The translations under genes and the position numbers were made by a program. A stretch of DNA of 64,000 bases from Haladaptatus sp. QDMS2 (GTDB lineage Archaea; Halobacteriota; Halobacteria; Halobacteriales; Halococcaceae): positions 310,001 through 374,000 of the forward strand of contig NZ_CP119791.1 of assembly GCF_029338295.1 (NCBI RefSeq), in the 5' to 3' direction. Under the pieces are notes generated by a model. It had not been told where the DNA came from and ran no database searches. It was given only the letters and a program-made list of their open reading frames with translations. Shown piece after piece: positions 22,119 through 30,574 of the stretch. Numbering within the stretch: the stretch's first letter is position 1; each line of letters begins with the position of its first letter.

Positions 22119-22936
22119 GCCGCGCAGGATTCTTCGACGAACGACACGAGCAGGTCGGTGAGTGTGTCTGCGTGAGGCGACTCGAAGATGCGTTGGGCGT
22201 GAGTGTCGCTTTCGAGCATCACGAGGCGCTTCGGGTCGGACGCGTTCTCGTGGAGTTGTTTCGCCGTGTCCACGAATCGTTGGTCGTCGTCTTTGCCCAC
22301 GACGAACAGTTTTCGTCCCTGCAACTGGGGGGCGACGTCTACGCCACCGGCGGCGGAGATGCCCATCACACCCGCGACAGCGCCGTTTTCTGCCTGCGCG
22401 TTCGCATGGACGACCGCTTCGCCGCCGGAACTCCCGCCGACGAGAACGACGTTCGAGACGCCCGCTTTGGATTTGAGATAGGAGACTGCGCCGAGGACGG
22501 CCCCTGCCGGGTCGTCTCTCTCGTCTATCGGGAGTGCGGTGTAGCCCGCGGCGGCGAGCAACTGCGCCTGTGGTTTCCAGCTCTCGCGGTCGAGATTTAT
22601 CTGTGGGACCATGACGACGCCGCAGTCGCCACTCCCGAACAGGGTACCTTCGATTTCAGCGTCTGCGGTTGAGGTGAACGTCACGTCAGCCCCCTCGAAG
22701 GAGGCGGGTTCTGGCGTGGCCGTGGTCTTCTCGGTATCTGCGTCGGTTTCCGCTTCGATTTCGGCGGCCGTCGTCTGTGCCGCCGTCTGCGTCGTGGTGG
22801 TCCCATCGTCCGCCTCTGACTCGGACGTGGTCGCATCATCGGCACCTCCCTGCGAGGAACACCCCGCAAGTGGAACGGCGAGCGCAGACCCGGACAGCAC
22901 CAACAGTCGTCGTCGCGACAGATTCTTCCCGGTCAT
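22115..22936 (-). CDS. Tat-exported lipoprotein with alpha/beta-hydrolase fold
   Basis: A 273-aa protein. The N-terminus has SRRRLLV (twin-arginine) and lipobox LAGC, then a Thr/Ser/Glu-rich linker (~residues 35-75). The hydrolase domain has nucleophile elbow GGSSGG, an acid in VVGKDDDQRF and a candidate His in DTHAQRIF. It would act on the outer face of the membrane. It resembles dienelactone-hydrolase/dipeptidyl-peptidase-like esterases; substrate unknown. The start at 22936 puts the Tat motif near the N-terminus. Confidence 0.82.
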   Translation of the reverse strand: MTGKNLSRRRLLVLSGSALAVPLAGCSSQGGADDATTSESEADDGTTTTQTAAQTTAAEIEAETDADTEKTTATPEPASFEGADVTFTSTADAEIEGTLFGSGDCGVVMVPQINLDRESWKPQAQLLAAAGYTALPIDERDDPAGAVLGAVSYLKSKAGVSNVVLVGGSSGGEAVVHANAQAENGAVAGVMGISAAGGVDVAPQLQGRKLFVVGKDDDQRFVDTAKQLHENASDPKRLVMLESDTHAQRIFESPHADTLTDLLVSFVEESCAA

Positions 22937-23123: not shown

Positions 23124-23972
23124 ATGACACAGAAGAAATCCCGACGACGAATCCTCCAGTTGACCGGCGGCGCGGCCCTGTTCGGTCTCGCGGGCTGTTC
23201 TAGTATCGCAGACATGGGCGACGACCAGTACCAGGCTGACAACACGCCCGCGGACAACCAGTCCCAGCAGACTCAAACGCAGACGACCACGCAGGAGTCC
23301 ATCGACCAGTCGCCGGACGATGGCGAAAACAACGGCGAAAGTCAGGCGGTCACCCGCAAGAGCGAGGAAATCGTCCAGCCGGCCGGGGCGGTTCTCGACG
23401 CACCAGTCGAAGACACCGACTCCACGTACGCGGTCATGGGTTCGGCAGACGCGAGCGCGAAGATGACCCTCTACGGCAACTGGAAGTGCCCGTACACCCA
23501 GGAGTTCGCCGTCGGTGGTTTCCTCGACGAGATCGTCCGTGAGTACGTCGAACCGGGCGACCTGCAAATCGAGTACCGGTCGCTCTCCTATCTCGGTGGC
23601 GAACCGTTCCTCGGCCCGGACGCCCCACTCTCCGCACAGGCTGGCCTCGCCGCCTGGAACGAGGACCCGGAGAACTACTGGACGTACTTCGCGTACGTGT
23701 TCAAGAACCAGCCACAGGAGCGCTTCGACTGGGGGACCGTCCCACAGATGAAACTGTTCGCAGAGGAAGCTGGCATCTCGAACGTCGAGGCGTTCACCTC
23801 CGCGCTCGAAAACGACGAGTACCTCTCGGCCGTCGAGGCGACCACCGAGGCCGCAGCAGAAGTCAACGTCGCCACGGTTCCACGCATCGTCTTCGAGGAC
23901 GGCACGACGGTTCGTCCGACGGTCGACCCCGACGAGACGCGGTCGGAAATCGAAGCGCAAATCGACGCATAA
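23124..23972 (+). CDS. Tat-exported lipoprotein with DsbA-like thioredoxin fold, single active-site Cys
   Basis: A 282-aa protein. Tat motif SRRRILQ and lipobox LAGC, then a Gln/Asp/Thr-rich linker (~30-80). The DsbA-like domain begins YAVMGSADASAKMTLYGNW and has CPYT in place of CxxC, so the resolving cysteine is missing. The cis-Pro loop is VATVPRIVF. It may work as a monothiol oxidoreductase or isomerase, or as a partner-binding protein. Apart from the lipid cysteine it has no other Cys in the mature form. The structured RNA region follows 50 bp downstream. Confidence 0.85.
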   Translation: MTQKKSRRRILQLTGGAALFGLAGCSSIADMGDDQYQADNTPADNQSQQTQTQTTTQESIDQSPDDGENNGESQAVTRKSEEIVQPAGAVLDAPVEDTDSTYAVMGSADASAKMTLYGNWKCPYTQEFAVGGFLDEIVREYVEPGDLQIEYRSLSYLGGEPFLGPDAPLSAQAGLAAWNEDPENYWTYFAYVFKNQPQERFDWGTVPQMKLFAEEAGISNVEAFTSALENDEYLSAVEATTEAAAEVNVATVPRIVFEDGTTVRPTVDPDETRSEIEAQIDA

Positions 23973-24021
23973 AAAATCCGATAGTTGGCAGCAATACTTA
24001 TGCCTGTGGCTAATTAACCAT

Positions 24022-24365
24022 CAATCGCGGTTTGAAATAAACCCGCCATCCAACGTTCGCAATTCGTGCGGTCTCGCGCCGACACCTTTGCCCGGGGTGT
24101 CGCCGCACATCTCTCTCGCACGCGCGACGTTGACGCGGGGGTCGGTGGCCGTCACGCCCGTGACTGGACCGCCGACCATCGACCGAACGCGACGTATCTG
24201 CCCGGTACGTCGTCTTCGTGTCCGCGTGGCTGTTACTGTTCTGTCACGTGGGCGGGCCGGAACGCTCCGCCGGACGAACTTTGCCCGGGTTCGTCTGGCA
24301 GCACCCACGTTCGGCCTGCCCACCACCACGCTTTCGACGCCCGAGAGCGAGTGCCACGTCTCCTG
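24022..24365 (+). ncRNA. Predicted multi-hairpin RNA with three identical-loop stem-loops
   Basis: This ~345-nt stretch before moxR has no plausible gene but folds well. Three hairpins share a 9-nt loop, UUUGCCCGG or UCUGCCCGG: 24080-24102, 24190-24212 and 24270-24298. Their stems differ (CGACACC, CGACGUA, CCGGACGAAC) yet each pairs with its own partner. A 16-bp helix (24248-24264 with 24308-24323, one bulge) encloses the third. Others: 24027-24046, 24140-24177, 24329-24349. Wobbles G24072-U24296, G24254-U24317, U24146-G24171, U24333-G24345 and G24189-U24213 would be A-C mismatches on the minus strand, so plus is favoured. No RNase P or SRP signature seen. It may be a separate RNA or the moxR leader. 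Confidence 0.6.
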
Positions 24366-24415
24366 ACCGATTTAGCCTGCTGATAATTAAAGGGGTAGAG
24401 ACGCAGGCTCAGTAC

Positions 24416-25381
24416 ATGCGAGTTGCCGAGGCATACGAGTTGAGCGGCCGCGTGACCGATACCATCGGAAATGCGGTCATTACCGAGCAAGAATTTCTTG
24501 ACACCGTTCTCACTGGACTGCTGGCCCGCGGGCACGTCCTGTTAGAGGACGTACCCGGGACGGGCAAGACACTCACCGCCCGGAGTCTGGGGAAAGCCCT
24601 CGGACTGTCGTTCTCGCGTATCCAGTTCACCCCCGACCTGCTGCCGGCCGACGTGACGGGCACCCACGTCTTCAACGAGAAGACCCGCGACTTCGAGTTC
24701 AAGAAGGGACCCATCTTCGCGAACGTCGTGCTCGCCGACGAAATCAATCGTGCGTCCCCGAAGACGCAGGCCGCCCTCCTCGAAGCCATGGAGGAAAAGC
24801 AGGTGACGGTTGACGGTCAGACCCACAAGCTTCCCGACCCATTCTTCGTCATCGCGACGCAGAACCCGGCGGAGCGAAACGAGGGAACGTTCCCCCTGCC
24901 GGAAGCCCAGAAAGACCGCTTCATCATCAAGACGAGCATGGGTTATCCCAGCCGCGACGGCGAGCGAGAACTGCTTGCCCGCCGTGAGTCTCGCGACGCC
25001 CGCAGTCCGAGCGTCAACACCGTCTGTGACCCACAGGAAGTCCTCGACCTCCAGCGCGTCTCAGAGCAGGTGCGCGTCGAGAAGGACGTCCAGGATTACA
25101 TCGTCGACCTCGTGCGAGCGACCCGCGAGGACGAGCGGGTGACCGTCGGTGCGTCTCCGCGTGCGACCCAGCGTCTGTTCGAGGCGGCCCGCGCCCGCGC
25201 CGTCCTCGAAGGCGAGGAGTACGTGACGCCCGACCACGTCAAACGCGTCGCCCACCCCGTCCTCGACCACCGCATCGTGCTCACTGCTGATGCGCGAGTA
25301 AACGGCGTCGAAAAGTACGACGTCATCGAGACGGTGTTGTCGTCGGTGGACGTGCCGACGATTACCTATGCAACGCGATAG
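24416..25381 (+). CDS. moxR: MoxR-family AAA+ ATPase
   Basis: A 321-aa MoxR. Walker A GTGKT (48-52) is in EDVPGTGKT, Walker B is VVLADEIN (Asp108, Glu109), sensor 1 is IATQNP and the C-terminal lid contains GASPRATQRL. MoxR ATPases act as chaperones, usually with a DUF58/VWA partner; the DUF58 gene here is on the opposite strand just downstream. The ATG at 24416 lies ~28 bp after TGATAATTAAA, so a short or absent leader is possible. Its 3' end overlaps the convergent operon by 20 bp. Confidence 0.93.
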   Translation: MRVAEAYELSGRVTDTIGNAVITEQEFLDTVLTGLLARGHVLLEDVPGTGKTLTARSLGKALGLSFSRIQFTPDLLPADVTGTHVFNEKTRDFEFKKGPIFANVVLADEINRASPKTQAALLEAMEEKQVTVDGQTHKLPDPFFVIATQNPAERNEGTFPLPEAQKDRFIIKTSMGYPSRDGERELLARRESRDARSPSVNTVCDPQEVLDLQRVSEQVRVEKDVQDYIVDLVRATREDERVTVGASPRATQRLFEAARARAVLEGEEYVTPDHVKRVAHPVLDHRIVLTADARVNGVEKYDVIETVLSSVDVPTITYATR

Positions 25382-28651: not shown

Positions 28652-29005
28652 TACTATCTGGCCTCGTGAGGTGTGCCTCGCCGCGCGGACGGTCTCATTA
28701 TCGCAGGCCACGAATACTACGCCCATTATTATGAAGTCGATAATCGGTCAACTCGCCGAAACCGTGCGACGACTCAACAATGTGGTGTGTTCACAACTCA
28801 CTCGAAACGAACTGCCCCTGGTAGGATGATACTGACACCATAACAACTTTGTGGTACCAATGAATCGGTGAGGGTGGCCAGTAATTCACGCGAGAATTAC
28901 TGTCATCGAACCACGAATGTCCGGTTTAACGGTAATTACGGGCCGGTATCTGCTCCACTCATACAGCATCTAGCAGTCCGGAAAGCAATCATCTACGGGT
29001 TATCA
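28652..29005. other. Divergent intergenic region between the DUF4129 operon and the beta-helix gene
   Basis: About 350 bp with no credible gene. It holds the promoter of the minus-strand operon and a strong palindrome at 28879-28902. AT content is higher than in flanking genes. Confidence 0.6.
28879..28902. promoter_or_regulatory. Perfect palindrome, operator-like
   Basis: Nine-base arms CAGTAATTC (28879-28887) and GAATTACTG (28894-28902) around a 6-base spacer. A partial echo, GGTAATTAC, occurs ~30 bp downstream. It lies ~105 bp upstream of the exported beta-helix protein. Either a dimeric regulator's site or an RNA hairpin; I favour the former because no T-run follows. Confidence 0.45.
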
Positions 29006-30574
29006 ATGACCACGCGCGACACGAACCACACAGCCGACACGACTCACGAATCGAACGACTCCCACACGAAACTTGGCCGACGAACCTTCCTTGGTGCGGT
29101 CGGGGCAACCGCAGCCGGCGCTTCGCTTCTTGCAACGGGAACCGCACGCGCTCACGACCACTGGGACGACGACTACGACCGTGTCATCGACATGGTCGAA
29201 GATGCGGGAGCCGACAACACAGGTAACGAATCGATTACCCCGAAACTCGAACAGTACGCGGCGAACGACACCTTACTCAAATTCCCACCAGGTCGGTACT
29301 TCATGGACTCGCAGTTCCGGTTTACCGACTTCCGGCACTTCGGGATGATGGGCGACGACGCGACGCTCGTCCCGGCGAACTACCACAACTTCGACGGGCC
29401 ACAGTATCGCCTGTTCCGCCTCGGCGTCGATTACGACCCCGGCGTCGACCTCCGAATCCAGGGGTTCGACGTCGACCTGCGGGCGGACGATACCGGCATC
29501 CGCGTCATCGAAGCACAGGTCAAAGATGGGCTGTTCGTCGACGACATCACCGTCGTCGGCCAGCACGACTCGGGGACGTACGGCCCCGGCCTGTTCAACG
29601 TCCTCGACCCGGACGGCAAGGGTATGGTAAAGCGGTTCCGCGCCAACTACGGTGGGGCGTTCTCCGCGAACACGCCAGGCGACATCTGGCGCGGCCCATC
29701 CGGTCTCATGACCACCCGCCAGCACAAAGGCCAAATCGAGTACAAAGACTGCGAACTGGATGACTGGCCAGATAACGGCCTTTACGCCCTGACGAACGGG
29801 CGAGTCATCGTCAACGGCGGGCGCTACGCCAACAGCGAGGCGGCGAGCATCCGTCTCGGCGGGACGAACAATCTCGTCACGGGGGCGCGAATCGTCGTGA
29901 ACAAACAGCGTCCAGAGAACCAGAACCAGCGTGGCATCCGCCTCGACGAAGGACCGGGGAACGCCGTCGTCAACACCGACATCATCCTCGACCGGCCGAA
30001 CGGCCACGCTATCACCGTGATGAACGACTGTGAGGACGCGTACCTGCGAAACCTCGACATCAGAATCGGCAACGAAATCAACCACGGCATCGTCGTCCAG
30101 TCGAAAGCCGGGCCGACGAAAATTCTCCGTTCCGACATCAACATCAACCGCGGTGGCAACGCGATTCAAATCAACGGTGACAACGCCGGCAAAGTCCACT
30201 GTGAGTATCTCGACATCACGGGGGAGGCAGACGGCGATTCTTGGCGACACGCGATTCGCTGCAACCGCAACGACTGCGAGTTCCGCGTCGTCAACGTGAA
30301 CCAGCAGGGGACGAACAAGCGCCGTGCGATAGTGATAAACGGCAACGACAACCTCGTCTACCGCGGGAAACAGACCGCGACGCACATCCCAATCGTCGTA
30401 AACGGCGAGGGAACGTGGATTGAGCGCATCGACTCCCAGTCCTCCGAGGACCAGCGCGCAGCGAAACTGAACGACCAGAGTTCGAACGTGACCCTGAAAC
30501 ACAGTCACATCAAGCGAGGCATCTGGGACAAGGGCTGTGACGGACTGCGAATGTACGGCAACGACACCAGCTAA
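29006..30574 (+). CDS. Tat-exported right-handed beta-helix protein
   Basis: A 522-aa protein. Tat signal GRRTFLGAVGATAAGASLLA with an Ala-x-Ala cleavage site (TARAH). The rest shows repeated beta-helix coils rich in Asn and Gly (NGRVIVNGGRYANSEAASIR, GGNAIQINGDNAGKV). Related folds are found in polysaccharide lyases and glycosidases, but I see no clear catalytic residues. Position at the head of a surface-glycan locus suggests glycan binding or cleavage outside the cell. The ATG at 29006 places the Tat motif ~22 residues in. Confidence 0.83.
   Translation: MTTRDTNHTADTTHESNDSHTKLGRRTFLGAVGATAAGASLLATGTARAHDHWDDDYDRVIDMVEDAGADNTGNESITPKLEQYAANDTLLKFPPGRYFMDSQFRFTDFRHFGMMGDDATLVPANYHNFDGPQYRLFRLGVDYDPGVDLRIQGFDVDLRADDTGIRVIEAQVKDGLFVDDITVVGQHDSGTYGPGLFNVLDPDGKGMVKRFRANYGGAFSANTPGDIWRGPSGLMTTRQHKGQIEYKDCELDDWPDNGLYALTNGRVIVNGGRYANSEAASIRLGGTNNLVTGARIVVNKQRPENQNQRGIRLDEGPGNAVVNTDIILDRPNGHAITVMNDCEDAYLRNLDIRIGNEINHGIVVQSKAGPTKILRSDININRGGNAIQINGDNAGKVHCEYLDITGEADGDSWRHAIRCNRNDCEFRVVNVNQQGTNKRRAIVINGNDNLVYRGKQTATHIPIVVNGEGTWIERIDSQSSEDQRAAKLNDQSSNVTLKHSHIKRGIWDKGCDGLRMYGNDTS

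Follow-up and report, generated by a model that had tools for sequence, protein, structure and literature searches.

What is the structured element that separates moxR from a gene for a DsbA-like lipoprotein in the haloarchaeon Haladaptatus sp. QDMS2, and what might be served by a loop that it presents three times on stems of different sequence? We addressed these questions in a 64,000-nucleotide stretch of the genome (the window; contig NZ_CP119791.1, positions 310,001 to 374,000), in which the element, termed RNA1, occupies positions 24022-24365 of the plus strand. A sequence-only reading had described it as a plus-strand structured RNA without a believable gene, likened it to CsrB-type titrating RNAs, and offered a moxR leader as an alternative.

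Locus and predicted fold of RNA1

The genomic setting given in that reading was borne out by domain matches. The upstream neighbor (23124-23972, plus strand), also present in congeners, encodes a DsbA-like thioredoxin-fold lipoprotein (Pfam Thioredoxin_4, E 1.3e-15), and the downstream neighbor (24416-25381, plus strand) is moxR, encoding an AAA_3 ATPase (Pfam AAA_3, E 6.7e-65). Farther along the same strand, 28868-30574 is an ORF of 568 aa whose start is twin-arginine-like and whose repeats suggest a parallel beta-helix protein. In two congeneric genomes RNA1 is found at the same locus with ~74% identity (BLASTN), and all three of its UGCCCGG hairpins are kept.

RNA1 runs from ~24024 to ~24365, the 3' end being approximate. 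The TATA-like element AATACTTAT (23993-24001, plus strand; invariant in 3/3 species) lies ~25 nt 5' of the first conserved hairpin, a spacing that suggests a promoter element of RNA1, and the conserved stretch TAATTAACC (24011-24019, plus strand), whose TAATTAAC part is invariant in the three species, may have a promoter-proximal role. A separate TATA-like element of moxR, TGATAATTAAAGG (24381-24393, plus strand), lies ~25-30 nt 5' of the moxR ATG; TGATAAT-AAAGG near this start codon is conserved in all three aligned species, and the moxR start is probably leaderless. Because RNA1 has a TATA-like element of its own and moxR keeps another, the simplest reading is that RNA1 (~340 bases) looks like an independent non-coding RNA rather than a moxR leader, and the leader alternative is disfavored.

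The plus strand of RNA1 folds at -177.9 kcal/mol, compared to -141.8 ± 6.0 kcal/mol for dinucleotide shuffles (z -6.0; 0/100 shuffles as low), a result that excludes chance, whereas the minus strand, folded likewise, reaches a z of only -2.3, in agreement with the strand originally assigned. The three hairpins said to share a loop on different, still paired stems were located as described, with perfect stems of 7, 8 and 11 bp, respectively: hairpin 1 at 24080-24102 (loop UUUGCCCGG, 24087-24095; kept in congeners), hairpin 2 at 24189-24213 (loop UCUGCCCGG, 24197-24205) and hairpin 3 at 24269-24299 (loop UUUGCCCGG, 24280-24288), all on the plus strand. Folded singly, they give z values of -2.8 to -4.1. 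In the predicted fold, the two bases at either edge of the 9-nt loops can pair with each other (Y-U or C with GG), so that the tip reads UGCCC. A hairpin model (R2), whose training set included all three, ranked them as the top three in the whole 64 kb. The window also holds a weak UGCCCGG-type hairpin at 22284-22306 (plus strand; 20.4 bits; E 0.008 for a search of the window); it lies inside an alpha/beta-hydrolase-like gene in antisense orientation and is probably due to chance.

Around these hairpins the plus strand is predicted to form several further elements. Helix P2 (24051-24056 with 24127-24132) encloses hairpin 1, and its U56-A127 pair becomes C-G in both congeners. Single-stranded ACAUCUCUCUCGC (24107-24119), with ACATCTCTCTCGC invariant in the three species, is similar to CCAUCUCUCU in RNA3, a third RNA considered below. 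The long helix previously placed near 24248-24264/24308-24323 is present in the minimum-energy fold as 24248-24264/24308-24324, where it bears hairpin 3, and the 3' domain is closed by a GCGUGG/CCACGC helix (24224-24229 with 24326-24331) that is invariant in all three species and hence without proof from covariation. Among the additional hairpins in the sequence-only reading, the one at 24140-24177 (P4) held up, being in the fold with its stem kept despite sequence changes. The other two are less secure: 24027-24046 is weak alone (z -0.5), with invariant bases and an alternative partner at 24135-24139, and the 3' hairpin at 24329-24349 (7 bp here), also in the fold, is loosely kept in congeners, its sequence being unalignable among the three species. 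By eye, the 5' GUAAAG box could pair with the CUUUGCC loop, but these bases vary without matching changes and the pairing was rejected.

Across the three-species alignment, a 29-nt 5' stretch including GGTTTGAAATAAACCCGCCATCCAACG is invariant. Eleven pairs of a consensus structure, drawn across the whole alignment with flanks included, have both sides changed in at least one sequence; these include pairs in P2 and in the stems of hairpins 1 and 3, one pair of the latter reading G-C/U-G/C-G across species. The alignment also contains indels of 1, 2 and 3 nt, which rule out a conserved reading frame for RNA1 and uphold the view that the region has no gene. An Rfam 15 covariance search of RNA1 gave no family even at E 5 (RNase P and SRP RNA, neither of which the sequence-only reading had recognized here, included), apart from a sub-threshold guanidine-III match outside RNA1.

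As far as could be detected, the RNA1 architecture appears limited to one genus. BLASTN against relatives returned nothing beyond the two congeners, other than 27 bases of genome G037 that lie in coding sequence; extra-genus matches to R1, a model of the RNA1 3' half, were weak, within reading frames or at E ≥0.2; and the triple-TGCCCGG pattern at RNA1 spacing, sought in 392 genomes, was confined to the genus, with the remainder at the control level.

RNA2, a widespread haloarchaeal relative

When the QDMS2 genome was searched by pattern, one more strong instance, the fourth, emerged between genes: a hairpin whose 11-bp stem closes the loop UUUGCCCGGG. It belongs to RNA2 (C1 ~1141240-1141510, minus strand; locus L008 1615-1340), which is located between an aminotransferase gene and cutA and has a fold z of -4.5. 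In contrast to RNA1, it also has relatives in other genera. The RNA2 core comprises, in order, a TATA box, ~20-50 nt, the box RUGANGUAAAG (UGANNUAAA; matched by 31 of 49 RNA2 sequences and more loosely by another 13), an invariant stem-loop, GCCGG(g)GUGCCUCUGACA..CCGGC (the CUCUGACA stem-loop), which is the best conserved part, and then the UGCCCGG hairpins.

A covariance-model search of haloarchaeal genomes showed how far this family with the same loop extends: model R3 placed RNA2 in 39 of the 87 genera of the order (80 of 293 genomes), a few matches being marginal, and the holders include Haloferax, Natrialbaceae, Halonotius and relatives of Halococcus. The strict pattern GCCTCTGACA..TGCCCGG (GCCTCTGACAN15-45TGCCCGG) occurred in 62 of 392 genomes of the order, compared to ~15 hits for the reversed control. 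A named collection contained it in 82 stretches. Roughly half were haloarchaeal (~40 named haloarchaea, including Haloferax, Halogeometricum, Halogranum, Halonotius, Halohasta, Halegenticoccus, Natrialbaceae, Halostella, Halalkalicoccus and others); the others were scattered bacteria at chance level. Outside the order, 197 genomes sampled from the phylum gave a single match, which had neither motif and was judged to be chance. Neither RNA1 nor a three-hairpin RNA2 was matched on plasmids, the exact RNA2 pattern was absent from the viral contigs searched, and Rfam 15 returned only tRNAs from RNA2 and RNA3 loci.

The number of UGCCCGG hairpins varies: three in tandem per RNA2 in Halonotius, Halohasta and Natronocalculus, two in Halogranum, Halegenticoccus and Haloplanus, and one in Haloferax and Natrialbaceae. 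Some Haloferax genomes carry two or three further RNA2 copies with UGCCCG(G/C) loops. RNA2-like paralogues in two Haloferax-group genomes (G195 and G128; loci L286-L289) have AUGCCCGCU or UGCCCGG loops and a GC-rich 3' hairpin, and some paralogues of this group sit in locally AT-richer DNA. Halalkalicoccus paucihalophilus has, besides its regular RNA2 (L191), a second locus (L142, ~6162, plus strand) with GUGCCUCUGACA twice around one UGCCCGG. The neighbors of RNA2 differ by family (aminotransferase/cutA, DUF123, helicase and other genes); RNA2 is therefore not the leader of one gene, which argues for action in trans.

Covariation in the hairpins is overwhelming. Stems of at least 6 bp accompany 74 of the 88 UGCCCGG sites in RNA2 loci, whereas exchanging 3' flanks between loci (300 rounds) gave a mean of 16 such stems and a maximum of 23. 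In 41 one-register hairpins, RNA1's included, 94.4% of cells were paired, a percentage flattered by the choice of this register group for stem fit, a bias of which the flank-exchange control is free; 105 cells had double changes, and every pair was affected. The covariation score of these 41 hairpins was 0.99, compared to 0.27 when shuffled and ≤0.16 with the partner slid. Judged from this pattern of substitution, the UGCCCGG loop is selected, with the stem sequence free to vary. Loops and compensatory stems are kept in the two congeners and in the RNA2 hairpins alike, as anticipated for the fold first drawn from the QDMS2 letters.

How close is RNA1 to this family? R3 was trained on RNA2 alone, without RNA1, and searched over six sources; it nevertheless matched RNA1 at 24021-24109 (E 2.8e-5), as well as the congeners' RNA1 and RNA3 (E 6e-4 to 2e-3). 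RNA3, from the same genus, consists of two UGCCCGG hairpins around GUGCCUCUGACA, followed by a CCAUCUCUCU tail. Its loci (L117 1494-1590, minus strand; L118; L119) are convergent with a HerA-like ATPase gene, and its 5' region ATTCATGCCAAGGGGATATGCCC is strongly conserved. In RNA1, R3 aligns the 5' box UGANNUAAA common to RNA2 at 24033-24041 (plus strand), a nine-base pattern with just two occurrences in the 64 kb, both strands counted. An order-wide R3 scan under strict filters listed only RNA2, not RNA1, in the QDMS2 genome. RNA1 shares with the RNA2 class its UGCCCGG hairpins (three, 24080-24299) and a 5' box following a TATA element; the GCCGG-GUGCCUCUGACA-CCGGC stem-loop is absent from RNA1 in 3/3 species. 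Since it has no CUCUGACA stem-loop, we call RNA1, on these predicted features, a divergent relative of the haloarchaeal RNA2 family and not a member of the RNA2 class.

Possible roles of the UGCCCGG loop

We give even odds to the best-supported reading, that RNA1 is a stand-alone, trans-acting RNA with its own promoter, a divergent relative of RNA2 whose UGCCCGG loops dock a shared partner and thereby sequester or assemble it. RNA1 would be transcribed from a promoter of its own at ~24024 and act in trans, with every loop docking one and the same putative partner, most likely an RNA-binding protein. The sequences themselves establish the structure, its conservation, non-coding status, promoter-like elements, the common loop and 5' box, and the reach of RNA2; transcription, partner and titration are proposed on top of these. 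A multi-loop RNA could then bind several copies of the partner, sequestering or assembling it as CsrB and RsmZ do with CsrA, and if RNA1, RNA2 and RNA3 of a single genome answer to different promoters, different signals could act on one partner. Titration is the most economical version of docking because the loop copies are repeated within and between RNAs. The presence of one to three UGCCCGG hairpins per RNA and of several paralogues per Haloferax genome speaks in favor of the proposal; the many RNA2s with a single UGCCCGG hairpin weaken the case for titration by multivalency. More tentatively, and with confidence that falls short of even, we suggest that RNA1, RNA2, RNA3 and the Haloferax paralogues might form the first archaeal multivalent 'sponge' RNA system, titrating one RNA-binding regulator as an independent counterpart of Csr/Rsm. 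Within the genus, R2 scores the hairpins of RNA1 and RNA3 highest. Its lower-scoring matches that were inspected fall within reading frames, so the search gave no mRNA site for a titrated regulator.

The main rival, which we consider unlikely though still worth weighing, is that these are antisense sRNAs whose C-rich UGCCCGG loops (in RNA2 also GUGCCUCUGACA) are seeds pairing with CCGGGCA-type sites in mRNAs or rRNA. Several loops would then amount to several seeds, an arrangement known from bacterial sRNAs whose loops are C-rich. An invariant 7-nt loop on variable stems is the expected look of a kissing or seed loop, and CCGGGCA occurs three times in QDMS2 23S rRNA, compared to 0.19 expected (rRNA operon region C1:2678800-2685000). 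One of these sites adjoins CAGUUUGACUGGGGCGG, which we take to resemble the P-loop region. However, this was one of seven patterns tried, and 24 of 2578 heptamers match it in frequency, so the rRNA signal is weak; the complement of the CUCUGACA motif was not found in rRNA, and the strict retention of all seven loop bases across an order exceeds what most seeds show.

We think it quite improbable that the RNAs are self-associating scaffolds, in which the palindromic CCGG (CCCGGG in some loops) would mediate intermolecular kissing and build RNA oligomers, like the large bacterial ornate RNAs. CCGG is present in every UGCCCGG loop, and several loops per molecule would permit networks, but kissing requires CCGG alone and the 5' UGC is equally invariant; moreover, UGCCCGC in some Haloferax paralogues breaks the palindrome, and RNAs with a single hairpin could at most dimerize. 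Harder still to credit is an RNA1 that is genus-specific and of unrelated function (for example, its own RNP), having acquired the UGCCCGG loop by convergence with RNA2: it would fit the lack of detectable RNA1 relatives outside the genus and of the CUCUGACA stem-loop in RNA1, yet chance convergence is unlikely given the R3 match, the 5' box and three hairpins that all carry the invariant 7-mer. Least probable of all is a cis-acting leader or attenuator of moxR, for although RNA1 is directly 5' of moxR in 3/3 species, moxR retains its own TATA-like element near the ATG, the motif is absent 5' of moxR homologues in 27 other genomes, and RNA2 uses the same loop without moxR.

Comparison with known RNAs

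Docking of a shared partner by repeated loops has its closest parallel in CsrB, RsmZ and RsmY, which are likewise stand-alone RNAs with the same short loop repeated on different stems and several paralogues per genome. The original reading is upheld as to a repeated, selected loop; the loops here are UGCCCGG and not ANGGA, the GGA that defines CsrA sites is missing, and many relatives have a single loop. We know of no CsrA partner in archaea, and for RNA1 the CsrB comparison is only an analogy. GOLLD, ROOL and OLE (PMC12286853) are, like RNA1 and RNA2, large structured orphan RNAs, and oligomerization via palindromic loops is conceivable; these ornate RNAs are bacterial, larger and without sequence relation to RNA1 or RNA2.

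The literature searched held no description of a UGCCCGG loop. Among archaeal sRNAs, hts10, H225.2R and htsf359 of Haloferax volcanii are intergenic and reported in more than 10 haloarchaeal genomes (PMC3956466). Some such conserved sRNAs of H. volcanii, known by name and coordinates alone, could be RNA2, which many Haloferax species carry. For hts10 this is unproven either way: its neighbor HVO_2212 encodes a 78-aa protein, unlike the RNA2 neighbors seen. sRNA132 of Haloferax is an independent RNA of 138 nt with two stems and a 13-nt pyrimidine-rich linker, found by BLAST in Haloferax only (PMC6560208). Compared by description only, it is followed by a gene that has a promoter to itself, unlike Haloferax RNA2, which is convergent with a DUF123 gene; no UGCCCGG loop is reported for sRNA132 (PMC6560208). 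The novelty that we claim is therefore that of the structural class and its shared loop, not of every transcript.

Very few archaeal regulatory RNAs conserved past one genus are known. In a mutant survey of H. volcanii, 22 of 27 sRNAs were confined to that species (PMC3956466). Set beside these, the RNA2 class is present in at least 39 genera and absent from Rfam; its loop and a 12-nt motif do not vary, and its covariation is strong. Retention of a loop on a freely changing stem is the hallmark of a specific binding partner, and a haloarchaeal RNA-binding regulator therefore probably awaits discovery; the occurrence of RNA2 in several Haloferax species makes the question testable in a genetically tractable archaeon.
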